Shown one piece after another: positions 1 to 14,459 of a stretch of 14,459 nt of DNA (its first letter is position 1; every line of letters begins with the position of its first letter). The notes beneath the pieces are model-generated. The model did no database searches. It worked only from the letters and a program-made list of their open reading frames with translations, and was not told where the DNA came from. Made by a program: the position numbers and the translations under genes. This DNA is from Bryobacteraceae bacterium (GTDB lineage: Bacteria > Acidobacteriota > Terriglobia > Bryobacterales > Bryobacteraceae): positions 1 to 14,459 of the forward strand of contig JARKOC010000480.1 of assembly GCA_029975915.1 (NCBI GenBank), read 5' to 3'.

Positions 1-742
1 GACGGAGAAACACGAGAGGGGCAAGGCGAAGGGCGCACTTGACGACAAAACCGCCCTGATAGTCATCAATGTCGCGTAGGAGGTGTGCAACCTCTTTCGG
101 ATCAGTAATCGCTGCGTGGTGTCTCTCCGCTGCACCTGGGAGTGCTCCGCGAAGATCGGCTGAGGGGTCACGTTCGGCGCGTCCTGTGGCGACGGCATAT
201 CGAAAAACCTGCCCGCATATAGTCCGGACCCTATGCGCCGTTTCCAGTGCCCCTCGGGATTCTATCCGCCGGAGAGCGTCAAGCAATTCAGGCGCCTTGA
301 TTTCATTTATCGGTCTTGCGCCAATCCAAGGAAACAAGTCCCTTTCCATCCGGCTCATAATCGTGACAGCATGACCAGGTGTCCAGGAAGATATGAATTT
401 GCCATGCCACTCCCGTGCTATCACTTCAAAGGTATTTTCGTCTCTTCCCCCCCCGGCCTGCTTCTTGGCCTTTCTCAGAGCACCGGGATCAATTCCCGCT
501 GCAATCTGCTCCCGTGCATCATCTCGTTTCTTTCTCGCGGACAAAAGGGACACTTCAGGATAAGTGCCGAGAGAAAGTGTTTTCGTTTTACCTTCGAAAC
601 GATATTTGAAACGCCACCATTTTCCTCCGCCGGGAGTGACCAGGAGATAAAGCCCTTTTCCATCAAAAAGGTGCTTCACCTTTTCACCTGGTTTCACGTT
701 GCGGACAGCTGAATCACTGAGTTCCTTGATTATCCGCGCCAT
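1..742 (-). CDS. P4-type tyrosine recombinase (integrase), partial, C-terminus outside window
   Basis: Site-specific recombinase expected to integrate and excise a genomic island. I translated 247 residues from the ATG at 742; the frame is open to the window edge. Residues about 5-90 match the DUF4102 arm-DNA-binding domain of P4/IntS-like integrases: DGKGLYLLVTPGGGKWW near 27-43, and LGTYPEVSLLSAR at 58-70. Residues about 104-200 are the core-binding SAM-like domain, with the typical RTICGQVFRYAVATGRAERDP stretch near 173-193. The last visible residues, APLVFLR, reach what should be the first catalytic arginine. The HxxR and tyrosine motifs of the catalytic domain are therefore outside the window, and intactness cannot be judged. 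The start is supported by AAAGGAG at 751-757, 8 bases upstream. The gene looks less GC-rich than the rest of the window, which fits mobile DNA. Confidence 0.92.
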   Translation of the reverse strand, partial: MARIIKELSDSAVRNVKPGEKVKHLFDGKGLYLLVTPGGGKWWRFKYRFEGKTKTLSLGTYPEVSLLSARKKRDDAREQIAAGIDPGALRKAKKQAGGGRDENTFEVIAREWHGKFISSWTPGHAVTIMSRMERDLFPWIGARPINEIKAPELLDALRRIESRGALETAHRVRTICGQVFRYAVATGRAERDPSADLRGALPGAAERHHAAITDPKEVAHLLRDIDDYQGGFVVKCALRLAPLVFLR

Positions 743-743
743 G

Positions 744-790
744 GGTGTAACTCCTTTCCTTGATGGTACTGTTACACCAACAGTTACACC
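744..790. repeat. GTTACACC repeats around the integrase leader
   Basis: Three exact copies of an 8-base motif. GTTACACC occurs at 771-778 and 783-790 as direct repeats 12 bases apart, and the inverted form GGTGTAAC lies at 744-751, next to the ribosome binding site. Integrases of this class carry an N-terminal arm-binding domain that recognises short repeats, and some repress their own gene through sites over the promoter. That these repeats are Int arm-type or operator sites is inferred from position and repetition. Confidence 0.55.
751..757 (-). promoter_or_regulatory. Ribosome binding site of the integrase gene
   Basis: AAAGGAG on the minus strand, 8 bases before the ATG at 742. It fixes the start of the integrase gene and lies between two copies of the GGTGTAAC-type repeat. 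Confidence 0.75.
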
Positions 791-809
791 TATTTTTTGT
801 GCATGTCAA
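781..809 (-). promoter_or_regulatory. Putative sigma-70 promoter of the integrase gene
   Basis: On the minus strand TTGACA (804-809) is a perfect -35 box. A 17-base spacer leads to TAACTG (781-786), a mediocre -10 box. The -10 box falls inside one of the GTTACACC repeats, so a protein bound there would block initiation. Assigned by eye; a second AT-rich stretch just upstream (TAGTATATT) could also serve as a promoter element. Confidence 0.45.
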
Positions 810-844
810 TATACTAGGATGGACATCACTAGACACCAGATAAA

Positions 845-873
845 GAAAAAGCCCTGATTTCTCAGGGCCTTTG
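845..873 (-). terminator. Rho-independent terminator upstream of the integrase gene
   Basis: A perfect 7-bp stem, GCCCTGA (851-857) and TCAGGGC (862-868), closes a 4-base loop. Read on the minus strand it is followed by TTTTTC, the classic intrinsic terminator form. Flanking A and T runs also allow weak termination on the plus strand. It would isolate the integrase promoter from transcription arriving from the antiporter side. Confidence 0.75.
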
Positions 874-1163
874 TACTTATCCGGACAGTGCCGGACCTTT
901 AAATGGTGGAGGGAACGCCGACCTACCGCAAAACAGTCTCAAAGCCCGCGCTCCTCGTAACTCCTTGATAATAAACGCCGAAGTCATCTTACACAACCAC
1001 TTCCCAACAACCCGACCAGAGAAACGATTTTCTCCCCTGATTTCCCGGCACCGGACGAGGGTGACGGGTTTGCAGTAAAACCGGATACCTGGCGTCGAGC
1101 AGCAACAACTTCGAATCCAGTTTTCGGACGCCGGTTCGGTTCCCAAAACGGAATCGAATTGAC
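874..1163. other. Gene-free stretch between the integrase control region and the antiporter fragment
   Basis: I see no convincing gene here. The open frames lack ribosome binding sites and recognisable motifs. At 904-914 the minus strand reads TTCCCTCCACCA, like the acceptor end and CCA of a tRNA, followed 30 bases later by the terminator. However, the T-loop sequence expected just before it is missing, so no tRNA can be folded. It could be a decayed attachment site or chance. Confidence 0.5.
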
Positions 1164-1761: not shown

Positions 1762-1776
1762 GCCCGTCAGTCGGGC
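1762..1776. other. Short hairpin between lpxR and the antiporter fragment
   Basis: GCCCG (1762-1766) and CGGGC (1772-1776) form a 5-bp stem with a 5-base loop. No T-tract follows on either strand; on the minus strand a TTTTT run precedes the hairpin. It is therefore not a standard terminator. It lies at the antiporter breakpoint and may be a remnant of the joining event. The rest of the ~100 bases up to lpxR shows nothing else. Confidence 0.3.
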
Positions 1777-1838
1777 TTCAAAAAGACCAGGCAGGATAGC
1801 GAAGTAACCAACTGATCCATTACTCGTAACGCGCACTA

Positions 1839-2885
1839 TCAAAGTTGTAGTGAAAGGCTGAGCACCCCGAAATCATCGCGGCGGTCGCCCTGGCCTTTGA
1901 ACTCCCGTGTCCTGAGCACATGGGTATAACCCAAACGCAGGTTCCGCCAGGTAATAGCGATACCGAACTGGAGGTCTCCCACCAGCGGTTCTTTGTCTAC
2001 GTTGCGGCTGTCGCGAAAGGTGTTGCCGTCAAGAAAGATGTTGCGGGCGACGGCCCGGCCCTCAATGCCTGCAAACAGATACCAGCCGAAACCGTGCCGA
2101 GGAATAAAAAAGCCTGAGCCCGGCACGCTGGGCTGGATTCGGGGAGGGCCATAGTCGAGCGGCAGGTTTTTGCCGTAGCGCAGCATTAAGCCGGCATTGG
2201 CGTAGGTGAATATGTTGCCCAGGGCGCCACCCGCATGCGGAGTCAGGTCGAAGGGAATGCCCAGCAGTGATTCCGCAACCAAACTACGCCAACTGCGGCT
2301 ATAGGCCAGGATGAACCCTGGCTCGTTCTTGAGTTGGGTGTCCCAGCCTCGCGGTTCATCCGCGTTCACGAATGAATGAACGCGCTTCTGGGTCTGTTCA
2401 GCAAGCGAGGCGGGGCCTACCATGCCCACGGTCAATTCGAGTTGATCAAGACGTTGCCCGGTTTCGGCGATTAAGCCAACGGAACCATAGAGCCAGCCGC
2501 CATAAGGGCGGTCATCGAGCGGGGGGTCCCGCAAAGTGATGTCCTCCGGAGTATACATGTTCTGGCCGACCGCGTAGCTCGCCCGCACGGCTTTGCCGAC
2601 AGGGAACAAAGGGAACTTGTCGGCCAGGCGCAACACCCACTCCGGAGTTTTGTCTTCGGCAGACAACCAGGATACACGCACCCCGTTGGTGTAATTCCGG
2701 TCGGTATTGTAGAACAGGTCGTTTTCCAGGACCAGGCTGAGGATGCCCTTCTCCGCCTTCTCGGCGGCGAAGGCCGCCGTGGGCGCGAGCAAAAGCATGC
2801 CGATCAGGATGGCGGCGATTCTCCTTCCCGGGTGGATCACTCCGGGATTTATGGTGAGCATCGGGGCTGCCGTCATTCTGCTCAT
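1839..2885 (-). CDS. lpxR: LpxR-family lipid A 3'-O-deacylase, outer-membrane beta-barrel
   Basis: Predicted 348-residue outer-membrane enzyme (DUF2219/LpxR family) that removes the 3'-linked acyloxyacyl chain of lipid A. It has a signal peptide: RR at 21-22, a hydrophobic core at about 23-35 and a probable cut after AFA (38-40). The family signature is clear: END at 54-56, then TDRNYTNG at 61-68, in the first strand region that carries active-site residues in Salmonella LpxR. Also present are DDRPYGGW (124-131), His170 in the region of the known catalytic histidine, and GWDTQLKNEPG (180-190). Later segments alternate like barrel strands and end in LSLSLQL, a typical barrel C-terminus. The same frame stays open far upstream inside the permease genes, but the real start is the ATG at 2885, overlapping the permease stop as ATGA; ATGs at residues 4 and 9 are alternatives. 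No good ribosome site is visible, so translation is probably coupled. Confidence 0.87.
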   Translation of the reverse strand: MSRMTAAPMLTINPGVIHPGRRIAAILIGMLLLAPTAAFAAEKAEKGILSLVLENDLFYNTDRNYTNGVRVSWLSAEDKTPEWVLRLADKFPLFPVGKAVRASYAVGQNMYTPEDITLRDPPLDDRPYGGWLYGSVGLIAETGQRLDQLELTVGMVGPASLAEQTQKRVHSFVNADEPRGWDTQLKNEPGFILAYSRSWRSLVAESLLGIPFDLTPHAGGALGNIFTYANAGLMLRYGKNLPLDYGPPRIQPSVPGSGFFIPRHGFGWYLFAGIEGRAVARNIFLDGNTFRDSRNVDKEPLVGDLQFGIAITWRNLRLGYTHVLRTREFKGQGDRRDDFGVLSLSLQL

Positions 2886-4003
2886 CCCATGGTCTCGATG
2901 GTTTTCCGAAATCGCGCAAGCGCGAAACCAAACAATGCCGTTCCGATCAGGGCCAGGCTGACGAACTGCGGCCAGACCGCCGTGAGGCCAGCGCCCCGGT
3001 ACAGGATCGACTGAGCCAACATCACAAAATGCGTGTTGGGCGCGGCGAGCATGATGTACTGGACGGCCTCCGGCATGCTCTCGCGCGGCGTCGAAGCGCC
3101 GGAGAGCATTTGTAGCGGAAGCAGCACCAGCAACAGCAACAAGGCGAACTGCGGCATGGAGCGGGCGACGGTGCCGAGGAAAATGCCCATCGAGGTGGTC
3201 GCGAACAGATGCAGCGCCGTGCCGGCCAGGAACAGCGCGAGCGAGCCCTGGATCGGTACGGAAAGCCAGCCCTGCACGACGACGGTGAGTGCCGTGGCAG
3301 TGGCGGCAAGGACGATCAGCCCCATCGCCCACACCTTGCTCGTCATGATCTCGAATGGCGTGACCGGCATGACCAGCAAATGCTCGACCGTGCCGTGCTC
3401 GCGCTCGCGGATCAGCGCCGCGCCGGTTAGCACGATGGAGAGCATGGTCACGTTGTTGATGACCTGCATGACGGCGCCAAACCATGACTTGTTGAGCTGG
3501 GGATTGAAGCGCGCGCGCAGCACCAAATCGACCGGCAGAGCTGGCACCTCGCGATAACGCTGCACGAAAGCGCGCACCTCGTCGCTCACGATGGTCTGGA
3601 TATATCCACTGCCGGTGAACGCCTGGCTCATCCGTGTGGCGTCCACATTGAGCTGAATCGTGGGTTGGCGCCCGGCGAGCAGATCGCGCTGGAAGTTCAG
3701 CGGAATATCCAGGGCGAAGGTGGCCAGGCCGGCATCCATGCGGGCATCCATCTCCGCGTGGTCGATGATTTCGGGGGTCACGAAATAAGGCGGGTAAAAG
3801 GCGCTGACGATGCGCCACGACAGCGGTGAGCGATCCTCGTTGACGACCGCGATCGGCGCCTTGTTGAGGGTCTCCGGCATGGCCGTTGCCGCCGTGTAGA
3901 CCGAAATGGTGAAGGCATAGACGATCAGCACCAGCATGATCGGGTCGCGCATCAGGCTGCGCAACTCCTTGATTCCGAGATGAAGGATGTTGGCCGGGCG
4001 CAT
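2882..4003 (-). CDS. yhhJ: ABC-2 type permease subunit (YhhJ-like)
   Basis: 373-residue inner-membrane subunit of an ABC exporter. One N-terminal transmembrane helix (about 20-42) is followed by a large periplasmic domain (about 45-180) and a C-terminal block of about five helices (180-200, 222-247, 255-280, 285-303, 345-362). The loop EREHGTVEHLLVMPVTPFEI (about 200-219) is the conserved cytoplasmic segment of ABC-2 permeases of the YhhJ/YbhR/YbhS kind. The start ATG at 4003 lies 3 bases after the stop of the fused ATPase gene, with AGGAG inside that gene's end as ribosome site. It is expected to pair with the permease half of the RbbA-like protein. The substrate is unknown. The stop overlaps the lpxR start by 4 bases. 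Confidence 0.88.
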   Translation of the reverse strand: MRPANILHLGIKELRSLMRDPIMLVLIVYAFTISVYTAATAMPETLNKAPIAVVNEDRSPLSWRIVSAFYPPYFVTPEIIDHAEMDARMDAGLATFALDIPLNFQRDLLAGRQPTIQLNVDATRMSQAFTGSGYIQTIVSDEVRAFVQRYREVPALPVDLVLRARFNPQLNKSWFGAVMQVINNVTMLSIVLTGAALIREREHGTVEHLLVMPVTPFEIMTSKVWAMGLIVLAATATALTVVVQGWLSVPIQGSLALFLAGTALHLFATTSMGIFLGTVARSMPQFALLLLLVLLPLQMLSGASTPRESMPEAVQYIMLAAPNTHFVMLAQSILYRGAGLTAVWPQFVSLALIGTALFGFALARFRKTIETMG

Positions 4004-4006
4004 GGA

Positions 4007-6799
4007 CTATCGCTCCTGCTTCTTGAGCAGCGCGGCGGCGAGCGCGATCAGGATCGGCACGGCCAGCGCCAGCGGGACGAAGGCCGCCTGCAGATCGGAG
4101 AAGTCGAGCGCCTTCGAGAAGGTGCCGCGTGCAATGGTAAGGAAATGGGCGGTCGGGTAGATCTGGCCGATCAGCCGGCCCGCTCCTTCCAGCGATGAGA
4201 CTGGATCGATCATGCCGGAGAAGTTGACCGCCGGCAGGATGGTGAGTACCGCCGTGCCGAAGATCGCCGCGATCTGGCTGCGCATGAAGGTGGAAATCAG
4301 CAGCCCCACGGCCGTGGCGGCGCCGACATAGAGCAACGCACCCGCCGCCAGGGTCAGGAAGCTGCCCTTCAGCGGCACGCCGAAGACGGTCACAGCGAGC
4401 AGGGTGAGCAACAGAAAGCTCAGGAAGGACAGCACTATATAGGGTAACTGCTTGCCGAGCAGGAACTCGAGCCGCGTGGTGGGCGTGACGTAGAAGTTGG
4501 TGATCGAGCCGAGCTCCTTCTCGCGCACCACGCTGAGCGCCGCGAGCATGGAGGGGATCAGCATGAGCAGCAGCGGGATCACCGCCGGCACCATCGCCAC
4601 CAGGCTCTTGACATCCGGGTTGTAGCGGAACCGGGTCTCGATATTCACGAGCCCCGCCAAAGCCTCGCCGTGCCCAGCCTCGCGCGCCTTGGTCGCCAGC
4701 CAATGGGCATGAATCCCCTGCACATAGCCGCGGATGGTCTCTCCCCGTGTCGGCATGGCGCCGTCGATCCAGGCGCCGATCTCGACCCGCCGGCCCCGTG
4801 CGATGTCGCGCGCGAAGCCCGGCGGGATCTCGATCGCCAGACTGATGTCGCCTTCGCGCATTCGCCGGTCGAGATCAGCATAACCGGTAATCGGAGCCCG
4901 CTCGATGAAGTACCGGGAGCCGGCGAGGTTGAGCGTATAATCGCGGCTGACGGTGGTCTGGTCGCGATCCAGCACCGCGAAGGTGAGATTCTCCACATCG
5001 AGGCTGATCCCATAGCCCATCACGAACATCAGGATGACGCTGCCGAGCAGGGCCAACGTCAACCGGATGGGATCACGGCGCAGCTCCAGCCCTTCGCGCC
5101 GGGCATAGCTGATCATGCGCCGGGGGTCGAATCGGCGCCGCCAGCCCTGTGGTTCGACATGACTTGGCGAGGCCTCGACTGAATCGAGCGAAGTGCTTGC
5201 GTCCGGTTGGCGTGCCTCGCCAGCGCTCTGCGCTTCGGCATCCTTCAGATAGGTGATAAAAGCCTCTTCCAGGCTGTTCTCGCCATGTTTGCTTGCCAGG
5301 GTGGCAGGCGCGTCAGTCACCAGTACCCGACCTGCATGCATCAGCGAAATGCGGTCGCAGCGTTCGGCCTCGTTCATGAAGTGGGTGGAGATAAAGATGG
5401 TCACCCCGTCGCGGCGCGAGAGCTCGACCAGCATGCGCCAGAAGGTGTCGCGCGCCACCGGGTCGACACCTGAGGTGGGCTCGTCGAGAATCAGCATTTC
5501 GGGCTTATGGATCATGGCGACTGCCAGCGACAGGCGCTGGCGGTGGCCGAGGGGCAGCCGGCCCGGCAAGCTGTCAATCACTGTGGTCAGATCGAAGCGT
5601 TCAACCATTTCGTCCACGCGCCCTGAAATCTCGGCAGCGGGCACGTGGAACAGCCGGGCATGCAGCGTCAGGTTCTGTCGCACCGTCAGTTCGGTATAGA
5701 GTGAGAAGAACTGCGACATGTAGCCGACGCGGCGGCGGGTCGCGAGGTCGTGCGGGTCCACCTCGTGTCCGAACAGCCAGGCCCGGCCTTCGCTCGGCGG
5801 CAGGAGACCGGTCAGCATCTTCATCGTCGTGGTCTTGCCGCAGCCGTTGGAGCCGAGAAAACCGAAGATCTCACCCCGTGGGACACGCAGGTTCACATGA
5901 TCGACCGCGGTGAACTCGCCGAAGCGCATGGTCAGATCCCGGGCCTCGATCGCGGTATCGCCATCGTCTTCCGGCCGCGGCGGAATCTCGACCGCCCGAT
6001 AATCCCGGCGCTTGTCTTCCGGCAGCAGCCGGATGAAGGCCGCCTCCAGCGAAGCCGCCCCCGTGCTTTGCAGCAGGCCTTCGGGCGTGTCGCTGGCCAG
6101 CACCCGCCCACCGTCCATCGCCGCCAGCCAGTCGAAGCGGGCCGCCTCCTCCATATAGGCCGTGGCCACCAGCACGCTCATGCCGGGCCGGGAACGACGG
6201 ATGCCGGCGATCAACTCCCAGAACTGGCGGCGCGAGAGGGGATCGACGCCGGTGGTCGGCTCGTCGAGGATGAGCAGATCCGGATCGTGGATCAGTGCAC
6301 AGCAGAGGCCGAGTTTCTGTTTCATGCCGCCGGAGAGCTTGCCCGCCGGGCGAGCGAGAAACGGCCTGAGCCCGGTGGCCTTGGTCAGGGCCTCGATGCG
6401 GCGCGTCCGTTCGCTACGATCCTGCCCGAACAGCCGTCCGAAGAAGTCGAGGTTTTCGGCCACCGAGAGCGTCGGATAGAGGTTTCCTCCCAGACCCTGG
6501 GGCATATAGGCGATACGCGGGCCGAGTGCGCGCCGATGGCGCGCATCGGCCATATCGCCGCCGAGCACCTCAACCTGCCCCGTCTGGACCGCGCGGGCGC
6601 CCGCGATCAGCGCCAGCAGGCTCGACTTGCCGACCCCGTCCGGGCCGATCAGCCCGGCCATGCAGGCCGCAGGGAAATCGAAGCTGACCTCGTCGAGCGC
6701 ACGCACCTTGCCGTAGCGCAGGGACACATCCCGCAGGCGGGCAACCGGTGCGGCAGCACTCACGCCATCCTCGATCTGTGCATGTATGTCCCGGCTCAT
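4007..6799 (-). CDS. rbbA: Fused double-ATPase/permease ABC exporter protein (RbbA/YhiH-like)
   Basis: 930 residues in three parts. ATPase domain 1: Walker [10 protein letters not shown] at 52-60, signature LSGGM at 155-159, Walker B LLILDE at 175-180. ATPase domain 2: Walker [10 protein letters not shown] at 316-324, Walker B LILDE at 436-440, H-loop histidine 473. C-terminal ABC-2 permease: from about 560, with a helix near 578-596, a periplasmic domain, then about five helices after residue 715. The architecture matches RbbA, first described as a ribosome-bound ATPase in E. coli but encoded with a HlyD-like protein and a permease as an exporter. The two ATPase sites are unequal. Domain 1 has alanine (214) where the H-loop histidine belongs, and domain 2 has LPLGH (about 415-419) in place of LSGGQ. 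The start ATG overlaps the upstream gene's stop by 4 bases. Confidence 0.9.
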
Positions 6800-7869
6800 T
6801 GCGGCAGCCTCGTCTGCAGTTCAGGCGGCCAATCCACCCGTGGGTCGAGCCGCACATAGGCCATGCCCGGCAGGCCGGTCTTGACCTGGAGGAGGTGCTC
6901 TCTGAGCAGATCCGGGGCGATCCGCGCCTTGACCCGGAACATCAGCTTCAGGCGTTCTTCCGTTGTTTCCACCGTTTTCGGGGTGAACTGGGCCTCGTCG
7001 GCGACGAACGAGATCTCGGCCGGGATGACGTATTGCGGGGCGGCATCGAGCACAAGACGCGCTTCGGTACCCAGTGCGATCCGTCCGGCCGCCTTCGTCG
7101 GCAGGAAGAAGGTCATGTAGACATCGGTGAGGTCGATCATGTTCAGGACAGTGCCACCGGAGGCCAGCACCTCGCCGGGCTGGGCCACCCGGTATTGCAC
7201 CCGTCCCTTCTGCGGCGCCTTCAGCACGCTGTCATCAAGGTCAGCCTGGATTCGCTCAAGCATCGCCCGGGTCGCCTCCACATCGGCTTGCGCGCCAAGC
7301 ACCTGCGATCTGGCCGTGGCAATGGCCGCGGCCGCCCTTGCGACATCAGCCTCGGCAGCGCGCAACATAGCTTCGGCGCTGAGAAAAGCGGCTCGATCGT
7401 CGTCGAATTTCTGCTGGGAAACGGCTTTGTCGGCGACCAGCGATCGCGACCGCTCAAGCCGTATCCGTGCCACCTCGGCCTCGGCCACGCGTTGCGAGAC
7501 CACTGCCTGCGCTGCCGTTTTCTCGCTTTGGCGCTGCACGACCTGGCTGTTGGCGATCCGCACCGAGTTCTCAGCCTGGCGCAAGCGGGCCAGCCCTTCT
7601 CTCAGCTGAGCTTCCAATACGGCGGTGTCCATCTTCGCCAGAACTTGTCCGGCCGTGATGAAATCGCCTTCGTCCACCAGGATATCCTTGAGCCGCCCCG
7701 CCGTCTTGGCGGCTATGTCAATCTCCACCGCTTCAATGCGGCCGTTGCCGCTGGTGAAGCCGTCGGGAAGACCCTTTTTCTGCAAGGATTGCCAAGCAAA
7801 GAGTGCGGCCCCGATAACAAGCACCCCTATGGCGATGGCCAGCAACCGTCCTTTATTAAGCTTCGACAT
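6796..7869 (-). CDS. yhiI: HlyD-family membrane fusion protein (YhiI-like) of the ABC exporter
   Basis: 357-residue periplasmic adaptor that should link the RbbA/YhhJ-like pump to an outer-membrane channel or deliver substrate across the periplasm. A transmembrane anchor at about 9-26 is followed by a first lipoyl-like half (about 43-82, with [17 protein letters not shown]), a long alanine-, glutamate- and arginine-rich coiled coil (about 83-225), and the second lipoyl half with [21 protein letters not shown] split around it. Beta-barrel segments then run to the C-terminus. I chose the ATG at 7869 because GGAGGT lies just upstream. An in-frame ATG at 7914 would add 15 residues that fall in the hsdS remnant and have no ribosome site. 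No outer-membrane channel gene is in the window; pumps of this kind often use a shared TolC. Confidence 0.88.
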
Positions 7870-7999
7870 TTTTTGACCTCCGCTTTGCCCCGTTCCCAGA
7901 GAACAGGCGGCCATTCCGGAACAGATTCCAGTGAGCCGAAATATCTCCTAAAAACGGCTGCCCGGAATCCTTGTATTCTGGATAAGGGGCCAGCTTCAT
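7856..7999 (-). pseudogene. hsdS: Type I restriction specificity subunit HsdS, N-terminal remnant
   Basis: 47-codon frame starting at ATG 7999, with GGGGAGG upstream and a 1-base TGATG overlap with the preceding small gene. Residues 1-34 are typical of the HsdS N-terminus: MKLAPYPEYKDSG, then FLGDI, HW and RNGRLF. This same pattern recurs before the second recognition domain of the other hsdS here (SGVEWIGDIPEHW). After about residue 35 similarity stops, and the frame ends at TAA 7856, inside the fusion-protein gene. Both target-recognition domains are missing; intact HsdS has about 400-450 residues. The remnant marks the join between the restriction cassette and the exporter operon, at about 7895. 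Confidence 0.8.
7876..7881 (-). promoter_or_regulatory. Ribosome binding site of the fusion-protein gene
   Basis: GGAGGT on the minus strand, 6 bases before the ATG at 7869. It decides the start of the exporter operon's first gene. It sits within about 20 bases of the point where the hsdS remnant loses family similarity, so it is almost the only native upstream signal left. Confidence 0.8.
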
Positions 8000-8178
8000 C
8001 ACTCAGCCTCCCCGACAATCTGTTCCAGAAAGCCTTCGGTCTCCTGCTCCAGGGCGTAGATATCGGCCTTGATCTTATTTAAAGTGCATCCATTACGGAA
8101 GATCAGATGGCTTTTGATTTTGCTTATCCGTTCAATGGCCATTCTGTTCCCCACCGTTCCTCTGTCAATCGTGCTCAT
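7999..8178 (-). CDS. Small unknown protein (59 residues) in the restriction operon
   Basis: A short gene that I do not recognise. The ATG at 8178 overlaps the stop of the Mrr-family gene (ATGA), and its TGA shares a base with the start of the hsdS remnant (TGATG). GGAGG lies about 10 bases upstream of the ATG. The product is charged, with no signal peptide or membrane segment. It begins MSTIDRGTVG and contains MAIERISKIKSHLIFRNG, then a probable helix (LNKIKADIYALEQETEGFLEQ) with an acidic end. Tight coupling on both sides argues that it is a real gene and once part of the cassette immediately before an hsdS. A helical accessory or regulatory protein is possible, but nothing in the sequence shows its function. 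Confidence 0.65.
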   Translation of the reverse strand: MSTIDRGTVGNRMAIERISKIKSHLIFRNGCTLNKIKADIYALEQETEGFLEQIVGEAE

Positions 8179-9221
8179 TTCACATCCCCTCCCATAGCAA
8201 ACTCCTCATCGATCTCGAACAGATCCGGCGTCGAACGATGGACGCCGATGCCGTGTTCCATCAGCAGCATTACAAGCTGTTCCCCGTTCATCAGGGCGAT
8301 GGGAGTCTTGTCGGGCTGGGCCGCTTCCTTGATGGCTCCGGCACTGAAGTCGCTGGTGGTAATGATCAGCCCTTGCTCGTGTGCTCCGAGGCTGCCGCGC
8401 ACCTGCTGCACAACCGGAGCTTGGATATTATTCTTGAGCTTCCATTTCTTGACCTGGACGGCCATCTTGATGCGGACCACGGCACCGACCACCAAGGTGC
8501 CCCGGACATCGATGCCGCCGTCGCCGCTGAGTTTGGTCACCTCGACCATCTCGAAACCCATCTCCGCCAGTAACTGAGAGATGAACTCCTCGAACTCACC
8601 GGGCTTCATGGCCAGCAAGCGCTCGCGCAGGACCTTGCGGACCTGGTGGTTGTGCTGCTCGATTTGGAATGCGAGTCCACGCCCCATCCATTGGCTCAGG
8701 CCCACATAGCCACGACCGTGCTGAACGAAGCGGGGCCGCTCACCGCGTTTCTGCTGGCGCTTGATCTCGGTGATCACCTGGGCGTACATGGTGGCCTCGG
8801 GCGTTTTGCCGCCTGTCACCAGCCAGCCTTTTTGCAGGGCCTTCTCGGTTATTTCCTTGTAATGCATCGGCTTCTTGCCGCCGAACTCTTCGAGCACCTT
8901 CTGAGCGCAATCAGTGAAGGAGAAACCCGCGTTCGGATGATGTTTTGGGGCTTCTTCGACGGCCGCAGGAACCGGCGCAGCGCCGCTCGATATTTCAGTG
9001 GAATCTCGAAGTGCGAAGGTCTGAGGGCCGACTTTTACAAAGGGCGACTTGTCCCCATTGCTCTTGATGTCGGAGTAGAGCCGGGCGCTGACAGTGGCGT
9101 CTGGGGTCTTACCTCCGGACTGCCAGAGACCGGCAGCCATGATCTGCTCGGCGATATCCTTGGCGTGCAGCGCCGTTCCGGCCTGTTGCAAAACCTGAAT
9201 TGCGGCCGTTTTAACGTCCAT
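8175..9221 (-). CDS. Mrr-family restriction endonuclease with two HARE-HTH-like domains
   Basis: 348 residues. Two similar N-terminal winged-helix modules are visible at about 1-72 and 100-175. Each carries the HARE-HTH pattern of an Ala/Lys-rich helix followed by GGKTPxAT and a YxxI segment (GGKTPDAT at 36-43, GGKTPEAT at 137-144). The C-terminal domain (about 200-325) is an Mrr-type PD-(D/E)XK nuclease fold: the helix GEFEEFISQLLAEMGFEMVEVTK, then GDGGIDVRG with Asp234/Asp238, and QVKKW with Gln256/Lys258. Mrr-type enzymes cut modified DNA, and HARE-HTH domains have been proposed to sense DNA modification; the real target is unknown. The start overlaps the hsdR stop by 11 bases and the end overlaps the small gene. 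It is probably an accessory nuclease of the type I cassette. Confidence 0.87.
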   Translation of the reverse strand: MDVKTAAIQVLQQAGTALHAKDIAEQIMAAGLWQSGGKTPDATVSARLYSDIKSNGDKSPFVKVGPQTFALRDSTEISSGAAPVPAAVEEAPKHHPNAGFSFTDCAQKVLEEFGGKKPMHYKEITEKALQKGWLVTGGKTPEATMYAQVITEIKRQQKRGERPRFVQHGRGYVGLSQWMGRGLAFQIEQHNHQVRKVLRERLLAMKPGEFEEFISQLLAEMGFEMVEVTKLSGDGGIDVRGTLVVGAVVRIKMAVQVKKWKLKNNIQAPVVQQVRGSLGAHEQGLIITTSDFSAGAIKEAAQPDKTPIALMNGEQLVMLLMEHGIGVHRSTPDLFEIDEEFAMGGDVK

Positions 9222-12201
9222 GGCTCGTTCCCGTTGCGGATTGTTCGGCCTGTTGCTGATAAGTCACGCCAAAGATGGTGTCGCCCAGCCATTTCTTGAA
9301 CGACGGATTGTCGCTGAACTGCTTGAACAGCTCGGTGTGGTCGGACAAGAGGTCGATCATGACGCGTTGCAGCGCGGCGTCGTGTTCGATCCGGGCGGTC
9401 TTCTTATCGTTGTTCTTCATGGCGTTCTGGTAGGCGGCGTCCGCTGCGACCTTGGCCGGGATCTCCTCGGCGATGACCTGGCGGATCTTGTCGCCGTCCT
9501 TCCAATCGATGTTGCCGAACTGGTCGTTGAACGCCTTGATGATGTTGCTCAGTTGGTCCAGCTCCGGTTCCGGTTTGCGGCCACCTCCGCTGGTCGGCAC
9601 CGGTCCGATTTCAGCATCCTGATCCGGAAGGCCTATCTTCAGGCTGGTTTTCACCTCGACACGGTAGCTGTCCATGTCGATGGCCTCCAGGATGCCCCGG
9701 GACAGGTCCTCTTCCTTGGGCGCGGGGAGTTTCGGGATCAGGAAGTTCAGGAAGATCGACAGCTTTTCCCAGTCGGCATTCGAATACGCCAGAATCGAGG
9801 ACAGAAAGCCGTAGGTGCGGACGAAAGCCTTGGCCTTGCCCTTGAAGTCCACCTGGCCATCTTCGTCGAGATCGGCGTTGTAGGTGGCCACGCAGGCGTC
9901 CAGGATCGGGTCGAGCTTGTCGCGGTCCGCGCCGTTCAGGTAGAGCCCCACCAGGTCGTCGATTTGCTCCTGGGAGTAGACCTGGTAGCCGTCCAGATCC
10001 GACTTCAGGTCGTGCAGTTTATTCGGGTCGGTTTCGTCACTGAGGATAGTGGTGCGGTAATAGGGCTCGAACGACTTCTGGATGGTCTCCGAGTCGTTGT
10101 GGAAATCGAGCACAAAGGTATCGTGCTTTTTCGGGTGGGCGCGATTGAGCCGTGAGAGGGTCTGCACCGCCTTGATGCCGGAGAGCGCCTTGTCTACGTA
10201 CATGGTGTGCAGCAGCGGTTCGTCGTAGCCGGTCTGGAACTTGTCGGCGACGATCAGGAAGCGGTACGGGTCCTGTTGTACCTTGTCCGGGATCTGGCTG
10301 CTGGGGAAGCCGTTCAGCGTCGCTTCGGTCACTTTCTTTCCGCCATACTCGTGCTCCCCGGAAAAGGCCACGATGGGCGCGTAAGGGCTTTTACGCTCCT
10401 TGAGGTAGTCCTTGAAGGCGTGGAAATACTGAATGGCTCGCTCGATACCGTTGGTGATGACCATGGCCCGGGCATGGCCGCCGATCTTGCGGTGGCCGAT
10501 CACCTGGGTGTGGAAGTGGTCCACCATGATCTCCGCCTTCTCGCGGATGGCGTGATCATGGGACTCCACATAGCGGCGCAGCTTTTTCTGGGCCTTGTTA
10601 GCGTCGAAGAGCGGATCGTCCTCCACTGTCTTGGCCAGGCGGTAATAACTCTCCACCGGGGTGTAGTTCTTCAGCACATCGAGGATGAAGCCCTCCTGGA
10701 TGGCCTGCTTCATGGTGTAGCTGTGGAACGGGTGATGCTTCACGGTGCCGTCGGGCTGCGGGTCCGGCTCGCCGAAGATCTCCAGGGTCTTGTTCTTGGG
10801 GGTGGCGGTGAAGGCAAAGTAGCTGGCGTTGGTCACCATCTTCCGGCCTTCCATGATCTTGTTGATCTTGTCCTCGGTATCCAGTTCATCCCATTCCGCC
10901 TTGTATTCACCCGGCTTTTCCGCAACGGCCATGTTCATGGCGGCGGTGGTCTTGCCGCCCTGGCTGGAATGAGCCTCGTCGATGATGATGGCGAATTTGC
11001 TCTTGCGGTGTTCGTCGCCGATCTCATCGAGGATGAACGGGAACTTCTGCACGGTGGTGATGATGATTTTCTTACCGGCCTTGAGGAAGCGGCGCAGGTC
11101 GCCGGAATGCTCGGCATGGCCGACGGTGGCGGAAACCTGGGCGAACTGCTTGATGGTGTCGCGGATCTGTTTGTCGAGCACCCGTCGGTCGGTGACCACG
11201 ATGACCGAATCGAACAACGCCTTGCTCTCGTGTTCCAGCCCCACGAGCTGGTGCGCCAGCCAGGCGATGGAGTTACTTTTGCCGCTGCCCGCCGAGTGCT
11301 GGATCAGGTAGCGTCTGCCGACGCCGCTCTCAGCGGCATTGGCCAGCAGCATGCGCACCACCTTTAGCTGGTGGTAGCGGGGGAAGATCTGCTTGTGCCT
11401 TTTTTTGCCGGTCTTCTCGTCCTTTTCCTTCACCACCTGGGCGTAGTTTTCCAGAATGTCGGTCAACCCCGCCTTGGAGAGGGCCTCCTTCCACAGATAG
11501 TCGGTGGCGAGCCCGGCCGGGTTGGGCGGATTGCCAGCACCGTCGTTGTAGCCCTTGTCGAAGGGCAGAAACCACGAGCCCTTGCCCTTGAGGTGGGTGC
11601 AGAAACGCACCTCGTGATCGTCCACGGCAAAATGAACGACGCAACGGCCGAACTGAAACAGCAGCTCCTTCGGGTCGCGGTCACGCTGGTACTGCTGCAC
11701 GGCATCGAGCACCGTCTGCTTGGTGAGCTTGTTCTTGAGTTCGAAGGTGGCGATGGGCAGGCCGTTGACGAACACGGCCATGTCGAGGGAGAGCGCAGTC
11801 TCATTGCGGCTGTAGCGGAGCTGGCGGGTGACGCTGAAGACGTTGGCCGCGAACCGCTCGGCCGCCTTCACGTTGCCTGGCGTCGGCGTGCCGTAGAAAA
11901 GGTCCACATGGGCCGGGCCGTGCTTGATGCCGCCGCGTAGCACGTCTACCACGCCGCGCTTGGCGATCTCGCCCTGCAGGCGGTGCAGGAACTGGGTGCG
12001 CTTGGGGCCTTCCTCGTCGATGCCAAGAGCCTCATAGGTGTCGGGCTGGGTGGCGGAGAGGAATTGCAGCAGCTTGGCCCGGTCGACGGCGTGTTCCCGG
12101 TCGTAGTCCTGCGGGTCGCCCTGAACGTATCCGGCCTCCTCCACGAGGGACGCGACGATGATGGACTCCAGGCCCTTTTCGCTGGTGTCGGTCGGTTTCA
12201 T
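9211..12201 (-). CDS. hsdR: Type I restriction enzyme motor/nuclease subunit HsdR
   Basis: 996 residues, normal length for HsdR. It translocates and cleaves unmodified DNA in complex with HsdM and HsdS. The N-terminal PD-(D/E)XK nuclease has Asp140, then FELKN with Glu154 and Lys156. The helicase motor follows: Walker A SAGSGKS at 303-309, VVTDRR near 335-340, the DEAH box at 408-411, a TATPKN motif, and a late QTLSRLNRAHP motif typical of motif VI. The C-terminal part is helical, as expected for binding HsdM/HsdS. All key residues are present, so it looks intact. The start ATG at 12201 overlaps the DUF1016 gene's stop by 4 bases, and the end overlaps the Mrr-family start by 11 bases. Confidence 0.95.
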   Translation of the reverse strand: MKPTDTSEKGLESIIVASLVEEAGYVQGDPQDYDREHAVDRAKLLQFLSATQPDTYEALGIDEEGPKRTQFLHRLQGEIAKRGVVDVLRGGIKHGPAHVDLFYGTPTPGNVKAAERFAANVFSVTRQLRYSRNETALSLDMAVFVNGLPIATFELKNKLTKQTVLDAVQQYQRDRDPKELLFQFGRCVVHFAVDDHEVRFCTHLKGKGSWFLPFDKGYNDGAGNPPNPAGLATDYLWKEALSKAGLTDILENYAQVVKEKDEKTGKKRHKQIFPRYHQLKVVRMLLANAAESGVGRRYLIQHSAGSGKSNSIAWLAHQLVGLEHESKALFDSVIVVTDRRVLDKQIRDTIKQFAQVSATVGHAEHSGDLRRFLKAGKKIIITTVQKFPFILDEIGDEHRKSKFAIIIDEAHSSQGGKTTAAMNMAVAEKPGEYKAEWDELDTEDKINKIMEGRKMVTNASYFAFTATPKNKTLEIFGEPDPQPDGTVKHHPFHSYTMKQAIQEGFILDVLKNYTPVESYYRLAKTVEDDPLFDANKAQKKLRRYVESHDHAIREKAEIMVDHFHTQVIGHRKIGGHARAMVITNGIERAIQYFHAFKDYLKERKSPYAPIVAFSGEHEYGGKKVTEATLNGFPSSQIPDKVQQDPYRFLIVADKFQTGYDEPLLHTMYVDKALSGIKAVQTLSRLNRAHPKKHDTFVLDFHNDSETIQKSFEPYYRTTILSDETDPNKLHDLKSDLDGYQVYSQEQIDDLVGLYLNGADRDKLDPILDACVATYNADLDEDGQVDFKGKAKAFVRTYGFLSSILAYSNADWEKLSIFLNFLIPKLPAPKEEDLSRGILEAIDMDSYRVEVKTSLKIGLPDQDAEIGPVPTSGGGRKPEPELDQLSNIIKAFNDQFGNIDWKDGDKIRQVIAEEIPAKVAADAAYQNAMKNNDKKTARIEHDAALQRVMIDLLSDHTELFKQFSDNPSFKKWLGDTIFGVTYQQQAEQSATGTSHGR

Positions 12202-13241
12202 AGATCCTCCAGCAAATGGGCGATGTCCTTCGGCGACGGCAGTTGACCTTTCAGCGCCTTGGGCAGGGTCTTGGTGATTTCATAAGTGGCCACGCCGATG
12301 GGCTTGCGGGCGTCGTGCAGGGCGTATTCCACAATCGTGCGGCTCTTCTCCTTACACAGGATGATGCCGATGGAGGGGTTCTCGTCCTCCTGGCGGACCT
12401 GCCGGTCCAGAGCCGCCAGATAAAACTGCATCTTGCCGACGAACTCCGGCAGGAACTCGCCGACTTTCAATTCAATGGCGACAAGGCAGCGCAGACGGCG
12501 GTGAAACAACAAGAGGTCGATGAAAAACTCTTTGCCGTCCACCTCCAGCCGGTATTGGCTGCCCATGAAGGCGAACATGCCGCCCATGGCCCGGAGGAAA
12601 TCCTCGATCCGGGCGATGAGCGCCCGCTCCAGCTCCCGCTCGCTGTGCTCCTCGCCCAGCTCCAGAAAATCGAAGGTGTATTCGTCCTTCACCGCCAGCT
12701 TGGCCTGGGCGCGAAGTTCCGGTGTGAGCGCCTGGTCGAAGTTGGTCTGGCCGAGCAGGGATTTTTCGTAGCTCTGGTTGTCGATCTGATGGATGAGCAC
12801 GTTCTTGGACCAGCCGAACTTGCGGGTCATGCGCAGATAGAATTCCCGCTCCAGCGGGTCCTTGCAGCGCTCCAGGATGGCCAGGTTGTGGCTCCAGCCG
12901 ATTTCTCGCACCAGTGGTGCGAGTTTTTCGAGTCCGTTGTACGCCTCGAAAAAAGCCTTCATCCGCCAGAGGTTGGAAGCCGAAAAGCCCCCCACGCCGG
13001 GAAACTCCGTCCGCAGATCGGCGGCGAGCTGTTCCACCACCGCCTTGCCCCAGCCTTCAACATCCTGCCGCTCCACGATCATCCGCCCGATGTCCCAGTA
13101 CAGACCGACCAACTCCTTGTTGACCGCCTTGAGGGCTTCATACTGGGCGGAGCGGATGCGCTCCTTAATCTCGGACAGCAGGCGCGGGTAGTCCTGCGGT
13201 TTGCCGAGGCTGTTTTTTGGGGTTTTGTCAGTCGGTTTCAT
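12198..13241 (-). CDS. DUF1016/YhcG-family PD-(D/E)XK nuclease-domain protein
   Basis: 347 residues from the ATG at 13241. The N-terminal DUF1016 domain (about 10-175) shows the family motifs NKELVGLYWDIGRMI, GFSASNLWRMKAFFEAY and IGWSHNLAILERC. The C-terminal nuclease-like domain (about 190-320) has EFFIDLLLFHRRL with Asp242, then VAIELKVGEF with Glu257/Lys259, a complete D...ExK set. Such proteins are common beside type I restriction genes and in defence islands, but their biochemical job is poorly established. An in-frame ATG at 13259 would add six residues. I prefer 13241 because GGGGGAG lies 5 bases upstream. The gene overlaps the hsdS stop by 14 bases and the hsdR start by 4. Confidence 0.9.
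   Translation of the reverse strand: MKPTDKTPKNSLGKPQDYPRLLSEIKERIRSAQYEALKAVNKELVGLYWDIGRMIVERQDVEGWGKAVVEQLAADLRTEFPGVGGFSASNLWRMKAFFEAYNGLEKLAPLVREIGWSHNLAILERCKDPLEREFYLRMTRKFGWSKNVLIHQIDNQSYEKSLLGQTNFDQALTPELRAQAKLAVKDEYTFDFLELGEEHSERELERALIARIEDFLRAMGGMFAFMGSQYRLEVDGKEFFIDLLLFHRRLRCLVAIELKVGEFLPEFVGKMQFYLAALDRQVRQEDENPSIGIILCKEKSRTIVEYALHDARKPIGVATYEITKTLPKALKGQLPSPKDIAHLLEDL
12905..12928 (+). terminator. Terminator-like hairpin on the plus strand inside the DUF1016 gene
   Basis: A perfect 9-bp inverted repeat, CTCGCACCA (12905-12913) and TGGTGCGAG (12915-12923), is followed on the plus strand by TTTTT (12924-12928). It has the form of an intrinsic terminator but points against the gene it lies in, encoding LAPLVRE there. 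Very tight pairing would use a smaller stem with a larger loop. It could stop antisense transcription or be chance. Confidence 0.35.
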
Positions 13242-14459
13242 CCATCTCCCCCTCGTCATCGATCACGTCATCGGCATCGGCGGTGTCCTCTTCCAGCGCC
13301 AGCAGCTCTTCATCGGCAACCTCCGGCACCTCGATTCCGCGCACATCCACCTGACCGGTGACCACATCGGAAATCAGCCGGGTACGGTATTCGCGCATCA
13401 GCTCGATCTCGCGTTGGGCGCGGGTGATTGCTTGGTCGATCTCGGCCGATTTTTCCTGGATGTGTTCGAGAATCTCCCGCTGCTCTTTGATTGGCGGCAA
13501 ACCGATTGGATAGTTTTTCACAAAATCCGATGGAATCCTCTGCTGGCCAGCCGCGCCGGTCATGTATTGCTCGCCCAGCAACAAGAACTGTTTGGTTGAC
13601 GTGAGGAACCGAAGGAAAGCGCCGTCAATGGCCTTTGAAGGACGAAGAACGATCAGTTCGGTAGTGCCAAAGCCGAAATCAGATTCAAGCCCTTTGAGGT
13701 AAGCTCCTTTGCCATTTTCAAAGCAGGGAGTGATTTTCGCGACAACCACATCCCCGCGTCGGAAATAGGTGAAGCCATTCCAGACTTCGGACAGAGTGCG
13801 TTTTTCAGAGCAGTCGATATCCCCATTGACAGAGATGTTCTCCATGGGAAGAAAGACAACCTTTTCTTCATCCGCCGGATTCGCTCGTGTCTCAGATTTT
13901 GATGGATTGAAGCTGACCACGCGTTTGAGCTTCGTGGCATCCCAATGCTCCGGAATATCTCCGATCCATTCCACGCCGCTGGGCTTGAACTTGACCTTGG
14001 GATCAAGCCCCCGGGTCACGGCCTGATTGATGACGTTCTGCTTCTGCTCCTTGAGAAGTTCAATGAACCGCCGCTTGTTGCGGATAAATTTTCGGAACAA
14101 ACGGTCTTGCGCCTTCAGGAATCGTGCGATGGCTTGCTGCTCTTCCTGCGGAGGGCAGACCACCGGCATGCTCAGAAATTTATCGGGATAGAGCCTGAGC
14201 CGGGAAGAGCGAATGCCCGTTGACCGGCAAATGTATTCCGACCGATATCCTTCAATCCGCAACAGACTGTCGAGATAGTAGTAGTCGTAATCCTGGTTGC
14301 TTCTTGGCCGGTAAACGCCATAGGCGGGACTCACAATTCCAGCATGGTTCGAGACGCCCAATGCAGACATCCAGGCCCACATCGTATTGATGATCAGGTC
14401 TCCGGGTTGGCAACGTTTCTGACCGACATTCGACTCGGCCTTGAACATGGTCACGTTCT
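13228..14459 (-). CDS. hsdS: Type I restriction specificity subunit HsdS, 5' end outside window
   Basis: DNA-recognition subunit that sets the target of the type I enzyme. The frame is open to the window edge; about 410 residues are visible, numbered here from the GTG at 14454. The end of the first target-recognition domain runs to about 100, followed by conserved region 1 (PPQEEQQAIARFL to QAVTRGLDP, about 101-152). The second recognition domain starts at about 158 (SGVEWIGDIPEHW) and runs to about 318. Conserved region 2 is PPIKEQREILEHI to VVTGQVDVRG (about 320-373). The two conserved regions resemble each other, as in all HsdS. After residue 375 comes a long acidic tail (DEELLALEEDTADADDVIDDEGE). 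The missing N-terminus, and hsdM, should lie beyond 14459. Confidence 0.93.
   Translation of the reverse strand, partial: NVTMFKAESNVGQKRCQPGDLIINTMWAWMSALGVSNHAGIVSPAYGVYRPRSNQDYDYYYLDSLLRIEGYRSEYICRSTGIRSSRLRLYPDKFLSMPVVCPPQEEQQAIARFLKAQDRLFRKFIRNKRRFIELLKEQKQNVINQAVTRGLDPKVKFKPSGVEWIGDIPEHWDATKLKRVVSFNPSKSETRANPADEEKVVFLPMENISVNGDIDCSEKRTLSEVWNGFTYFRRGDVVVAKITPCFENGKGAYLKGLESDFGFGTTELIVLRPSKAIDGAFLRFLTSTKQFLLLGEQYMTGAAGQQRIPSDFVKNYPIGLPPIKEQREILEHIQEKSAEIDQAITRAQREIELMREYRTRLISDVVTGQVDVRGIEVPEVADEELLALEEDTADADDVIDDEGEMDETD

Follow-up and report, generated by a model that had tools for sequence, protein, structure and literature searches.

Genes for an ATP-driven exporter and a gene for an outer-membrane enzyme of lipid A modification, lpxR, lie end to end in a Bryobacteraceae genome, raising the question of whether lpxR has a functional part in the exporter operon or merely travels with it. 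The DNA analysed is a stretch of 14,459 nucleotides, referred to here as the window.

Organization of the exporter-lpxR operon

The original prediction described a string of four genes, HlyD-like, RbbA-like, YhhJ-like and LpxR-family, joined by ATGA, a 3-nt gap and ATGA, and both the coordinates and the family profiles confirm it. The features, in the order of transcription, are as follows.

7877-7881, minus strand: GGAGG, a ribosome-binding-like site of hlyD, 5' of the ATG at 7869
6796-7869, minus strand: hlyD-like gene, 357 aa, periplasmic adaptor (membrane fusion protein); PF13437 and PF16576 above cut-off
6796-6799, minus strand: 4-nt overlap ATGA of hlyD stop and rbbA start, read from the sequence
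4007-6799, minus strand: rbbA, 930 aa, two ABC ATPase domains fused to an ABC-2 permease; NF033858
4004-4006, minus strand: 3-nt gap between rbbA and yhhJ, TAG TCC ATG
2882-4003, minus strand: yhhJ-like gene, 373 aa, second ABC-2 permease; PF12698 and PF01061
2882-2885, minus strand: 4-nt overlap ATGA of yhhJ stop and lpxR start, read from the sequence
1839-2885, minus strand: lpxR, 348 aa, outer-membrane lipid A 3'-O-deacylase family; PF09982, 394.4 bits against a cut-off of 26

RbbA matches the whole of profile NF033858 (1-909) with 1576.8 bits against an equivalog cut-off of 1050, and contains PF00005 in two stretches and PF12698 at 584-895. The adaptor reaches the level of the RND_mfp subfamily (TIGR01730, 116.6 bits, cut-off 94.9), its best equivalog, NF002939 (PRK03598), scoring 155 bits and thus below the cut-off of 393. 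The second permease matches the permease half of NF033858, and none of the NCBIfam families reaches its own cut-off with it. YhhJ-like and HlyD-like are therefore fitting names, since the first lacks an equivalog above cut-off and the second is placed at subfamily level only. A longer mechanical frame for LpxR (1839-4703) was set aside in favour of the start at 2885, which is likely to be correct because two related loci, L042 and L043, show the same overlap and the same 348-aa length; their LpxR proteins are 75-79% and 91% identical to that of the window, respectively. The order of the operon is not a matter of chance, given that it recurs in other phyla (see below), and we infer that the four genes are co-transcribed. 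No outer-membrane channel (OEP) was found among the ten window proteins scanned; one is encoded nearby in the relatives L085 and L042.

The first three genes correspond in order to E. coli yhiI-rbbA-yhhJ, with an adaptor, a fused ABC ATPase-permease and a second permease; the window differs in having lpxR as a fourth, coupled gene. No title or abstract was found that names a substrate of RbbA-YhhJ exporters. The nearest studied exporter is YbhFSR of E. coli, in which YbhF, YbhS and YbhR are separate proteins. Like that of the window, the YbhGFSR system (regulator CecR) is an ABC-2 exporter with an HlyD-type adaptor; it is not known to include a lipid A enzyme. YbhFSR is reported to export tetracyclines and ethidium (PMC7190983).

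The LpxR protein

The window LpxR is predicted to form an outer-membrane barrel of the 3FID fold following a hydrophobic helix at residues 19-33. Residues H170 and Q166 align to the catalytic H122 and Q118, and both are invariant among 31 sequences; the H122/Q118 numbering is by our own count, which places Q57, P62, K67, F79 and W133 as in PMC3486919. The alignment runs from 47 to 348 on 1 to 296, and as a range rather than a residue-level alignment it would put N55 and D56 on N9 and D10 if the first strand is ungapped, with T66 as a candidate, from the same range, for S/T34. N55, D56 and T66 are also invariant in the 31 sequences. The protein would presumably act as a 3'-O-deacylase. It is about 20% identical to LpxR of Salmonella and Yersinia, from which it differs also in the coupling of its gene to an exporter. 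A review notes that lpxR had yet to be shown to contribute to polymyxin resistance (PMC4244539).

Recurrence of the linkage

An alignment scan with LpxR over one genome per species (84,980 species) returned at least 550 relatives, of which the best 80 were kept. Among these 80, lpxR follows yhhJ, directly or one gene later, in 12 loci (L061, L062, L063, L069, L070, L072, L073, L075, L077, L078, L081 and L085), and rbbA is present on the same stretch in 10 of the 12; in L069 and L078 the contig begins inside yhhJ. L061 represents the same type as the window (100%), L069 and L070 are near-duplicates, as are L072 and L075, and L075 and L081 come from one assembly. Four further linked loci came from genome searches (L042 in G003, L141 in G573, L142 in G673 and L143 in G180). 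The carriers belong to the Desulfobacterota and to the alpha-, beta- and gammaproteobacteria, and include Phaeospirillum, Thiobacillus, Parasulfuritortus, a Burkholderiales bacterium, Porticoccaceae and a Chromatiales bacterium. Thus the concern that lpxR might neighbour this exporter in a single strain can be set aside: lpxR adjoins the exporter in species from several phyla, where its gene is coupled to that of YhhJ and the two move block-wise. In the open-licence literature no paper was found on both LpxR and RbbA, nor any title or abstract describing this exporter-lpxR operon.

Genes were called by codon scoring, as longest-frame calling misread the G+C-rich loci. In loci with no gene between yhhJ and lpxR, the latter starts between -4 and +12 nt from the yhhJ stop. 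The 4-nt overlap is found in the window, L043, L042, L063, L073 and L077, and with a GTG start in L078; the spacing is +2 in L141 and L142 (with an ATG chosen by our own reading, the gene caller giving +65), +3 in L072 and L075, and +12 in L081. L069, L070 and L143 carry an MFS gene in between, with a 4-nt overlap with yhhJ and with lpxR 60-61 nt further on, and in L085 a patatin-like gene (PF01734, positions 8527-9888) overlaps yhhJ by 4 nt and is followed by lpxR after 10 nt. L085 accordingly has two lipid-acting enzymes, the patatin-like protein and LpxR, within one exporter operon. Both hlyD and rbbA of L081 are broken into two frames, with yhhJ and lpxR whole.

Block transfer and a likely tail exchange

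Window positions 1838-7767 align with L141 (Oceanibaculum-type) at 84.4% DNA identity over 5962 columns, the match ending at the lpxR stop. DNA identity is 75% with L042 over 1770-7752 and 73% with L063 over 1947-7761, such that in all three the shared DNA extends, across phyla, from early hlyD to the end of lpxR. At the level of DNA these alignments show that exporter and lpxR share inheritance and have been transferred as a block, although such transfer would also be expected if the genes merely travel together.

L143 departs from this pattern at the end of yhhJ. Its DNA is 88.7% identical to that of the window up to position 2881, the end of yhhJ, where the match halts. At the protein level its YhhJ stands closer to L141 (94% identity) than to the window (89%). 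Its LpxR is 78% identical to the Thiobacillus protein and 55-62% to the window and Oceanibaculum types (61% to L141), and the final ~90 nt of its yhhJ are also of Thiobacillus type. The segment L143:1923-4276 (along the operon) is thus a mosaic of an Oceanibaculum-type exporter and a Thiobacillus-type MFS-lpxR tail, with the crossover at the yhhJ end. In our reading, homologous recombination within yhhJ replaced the tail or supplied one, apparently leaving an operon that still ends in lpxR; alternatively, the mosaic may be a chimeric assembly.

Frequency of the linkage

Three genome samples were used to ask how often the two genes are adjacent. Among 146 genomes of the window's order, LpxR is present in 41, RbbA in 27 and both in 10, with adjacency in 3; the corresponding counts are 51, 28, 11 and 2 in a sample of 274 genomes from the gammaproteobacterial class and 88, 30, 22 and 3 in a sample of 289 alphaproteobacterial genomes. 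Adjacency is therefore seen in 8 of the 85 RbbA genomes of the three samples, or 5 of 82 when the sample centres (G001, G152 and G149, one per sample, each picked because it is linked) are left out; broken contigs may conceal some adjacent pairs. Linkage is a minority state. With relatedness ignored, co-occurrence of LpxR and RbbA is unremarkable in the window's order (10 genomes against 7.6 expected, p 0.34) and above expectation in the gammaproteobacterial (11 against 5.2, p 0.008) and alphaproteobacterial samples (22 against 9.1, p 4e-7).

It had been proposed at the outset that a functional link would be unlikely if lpxR usually sat elsewhere, and for the sampled majority it does: adjacency is found in 3 of 41, 2 of 51 and 3 of 88 LpxR genomes, and in 3 of 27, 2 of 28 and 3 of 30 RbbA genomes. 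The idea of a joint unit thus gains from recurrence in several phyla as a moving block and loses from lpxR being located mostly elsewhere.

In none of the 55 unlinked RbbA loci that show a following gene does LpxR follow yhhJ. Seven of the 55 have another same-strand gene within 50 nt of yhhJ, comprising five of ~785 aa, a glutamate symporter (L146) and one doubtful 70-aa frame. The ~785-aa product is the fourth gene of RbbA operons in marine-type gammaproteobacterial loci (L175-L178 and L180); in the two that were scanned, L176 and L178, it has an outer-membrane efflux domain C-terminally, and its N-terminal part matches no Pfam family.

A quick tree of 100 LpxR rows places the 15 linked rows within a 29-row clade (SH-aLRT 82, weak) nested in a 39-row clade (98), and on these sequences the exporter link is restricted to one part of the LpxR family. 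The linked rows are interspersed in the 29-row clade with 14 unlinked ones, requiring 7 changes of state, and a single linked LpxR clade is rejected (p-AU 2.3e-5, 100 rows). Among 71 YhhJ rows the 15 linked rows need 9 changes, and one clade is again rejected (p-AU 6.5e-5). L065 (Paramagnetospirillum) has an LpxR that is sister to that of the linked L063 and lacks the exporter, whereas L162 and L164 have a YhhJ 87-89% like the window's and an exporter present without lpxR; neither lpxR nor the exporter, then, needs the other.

Pumps and regulators at related loci

Several linked loci have further efflux genes or regulators nearby. MarR, EmrA-like and EmrB genes lie 5' of hlyD on the same strand in L141, a TetR gene with CecR_C is upstream in L042, and the channel gene of L085 noted above encodes an outer-membrane efflux protein at the linked locus itself. 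Among unlinked members of the LpxR clade, lpxR is preceded by AcrA-like, AcrB and TetR genes in L109 and by TetR-like, AcrA-like, AcrB-like, outer-membrane efflux protein and MFS genes in L071 ('-like' being assigned by eye in both); L116 has TetR and a divergent outer-membrane efflux protein, L097 a divergent MFS gene and L083 an ABC-2 permease two genes upstream. No drug-pump gene was found within two genes in the other nine unlinked rows of the clade, save MatE and a metal ATPase. L071, L097, L109 and L116 thus resemble the window in having an LpxR of the same clade with efflux genes adjoining, but they have no RbbA exporter, and the pump genes of L097 and L116 run on the opposite strand.

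In a first census, 19 of the 29 clade loci (4 of the 14 unlinked) and 2 of 71 outside had a pump gene no more than 1.5 kb away, but this census is biased, the query proteins having been drawn from clade loci and the L085 patatin labelled as OMF. A neutral Pfam census of 26 upstream genes at the 14 unlinked clade loci, a small sample from which one of 27 genes (a 2436-aa frame in L097) is omitted, gives MFS 2, OEP 2, TetR 2, and AcrB, ABC-2, MatE and metal ATPase 1 each. Outside the clade (137 genes at 71 loci), ABC ATPase occurs 4 times, and MFS, OEP, AcrB and TetR are absent among the 25 families shown, that is, have at most 2 each. The neutral census gives a weaker pump association than the first.

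Possible roles of the coupled LpxR

The reading that we favour, at roughly even chances, is that exporter and lpxR form a mobile envelope-defence unit combining efflux with lipid A remodelling. The HlyD adaptor, RbbA and YhhJ would form an ATP-driven exporter connecting to an outer-membrane channel whose gene lies elsewhere, and LpxR, translated from the same message by translational coupling and sent to the outer membrane, would strip one or more 3'-linked acyl chains off lipid A. Faced with an amphiphilic toxic compound, the pump would expel it and LpxR would alter the packing of the outer leaflet, such that re-entry falls or the envelope tolerates the compound. Both the efflux role and the synergy of pump and LpxR are presumed. 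If this is true, RbbA-YhhJ exporters gain a partner through which their job becomes testable, and lipid A deacylation would extend, from the pathogens to which LpxR studies refer, into the efflux physiology of environmental bacteria.

Possible too, if we hold it only tentatively, is a broader arrangement in which this LpxR clade is a standing accessory of exporters, reshaping lipid A in the course of pump action with one transcript setting both; joining or exchange would have happened several times over, involving RbbA, RND, Emr-type and MFS pumps.

We consider it rather doubtful that, in a handful of lineages, lpxR landed by chance behind the last gene of a mobile exporter operon and now spreads along with it, the two having unrelated jobs. 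The minority status of the linkage and the survival of each partner alone (L065; L162 and L164) agree with such hitch-hiking, as does a slot after yhhJ that accepts varied genes, as in the 7 of 55 unlinked loci (e.g. L146). Against this, lpxR holds the slot across several phyla, with 4-nt overlaps, through tail exchange and with spacings or inserts of three kinds, and LpxR proteins related to this one are found at other pumps too.

An envelope-related job for the operon, as originally suggested, remains plausible, but we see no sign here of lipid or lipopolysaccharide as cargo, and it is unlikely that the pump carries such a molecule and that LpxR, at the outer membrane, processes this cargo or what surrounds it. 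The patatin-like gene and lpxR after yhhJ in L085 would fit, as would the ABC-2 class of the pump subunits, a class that also includes polysaccharide and lipid exporters; however, the linked operons examined contain no lipid biosynthesis gene, and the pump neighbours and MarR/TetR regulators favour efflux. The MarR, TetR, EmrAB-like, AcrB and MFS genes of related loci would point to drug or amphiphile efflux rather than to lipid cargo.

PagL is a lipid A deacylase distinct from LpxR that acts on another acyl chain. It raises vesiculation in Salmonella (PMC4958258). We hold it very improbable that LpxR-deacylated lipid A likewise promotes vesiculation and so sheds a toxic compound brought out by the pump; the difference of enzyme and chain speaks against it, and no vesicle gene was seen near the operon.

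Surroundings of the operon in the window

No regulator adjoins the exporter-lpxR operon in the window; a type I restriction operon lies upstream, and the genes that usually precede the unit have been lost.

13228-14457, minus strand: hsdS, open at the window's end
12198-13259, minus strand: DUF1016/YhcG nuclease (PADLOC PDC-S02)
9211-12201, minus strand: hsdR of the type I restriction operon
8175-9221, minus strand: HARE-HTH and Mrr nuclease
7856-7999, minus strand: hsdS-like start, the first 47 codons of an apparent second hsdS, overlapping hlyD

The restriction operon (7856-14457) is on the same strand as the exporter and also contains a 59-aa frame. With hlyD placed behind it and the hsdS-like start, transcription of the exporter genes may come from there.

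On the other side, lpxR is followed by the C-terminal half of a sodium/calcium antiporter (1164-1667; profile 174-317 of 325), and a 325-aa gene downstream of lpxR in L062 matches this fragment at 92%. The left flank of the window carries a tyrosine integrase (2-742, minus strand), and window positions 1-900 were not found in G147 or in G001, which shares all sampled words. The sequence AAATGGTGGAGG at the junction near 900-905 resembles the end of a tRNA gene, and no tRNA was found. L041 (G001) matches the window from position 900 and L061 (UBA5852) from 905, both at more than 99.9%, and the left flanks are all different; the junction is probably the edge of a mobile island.
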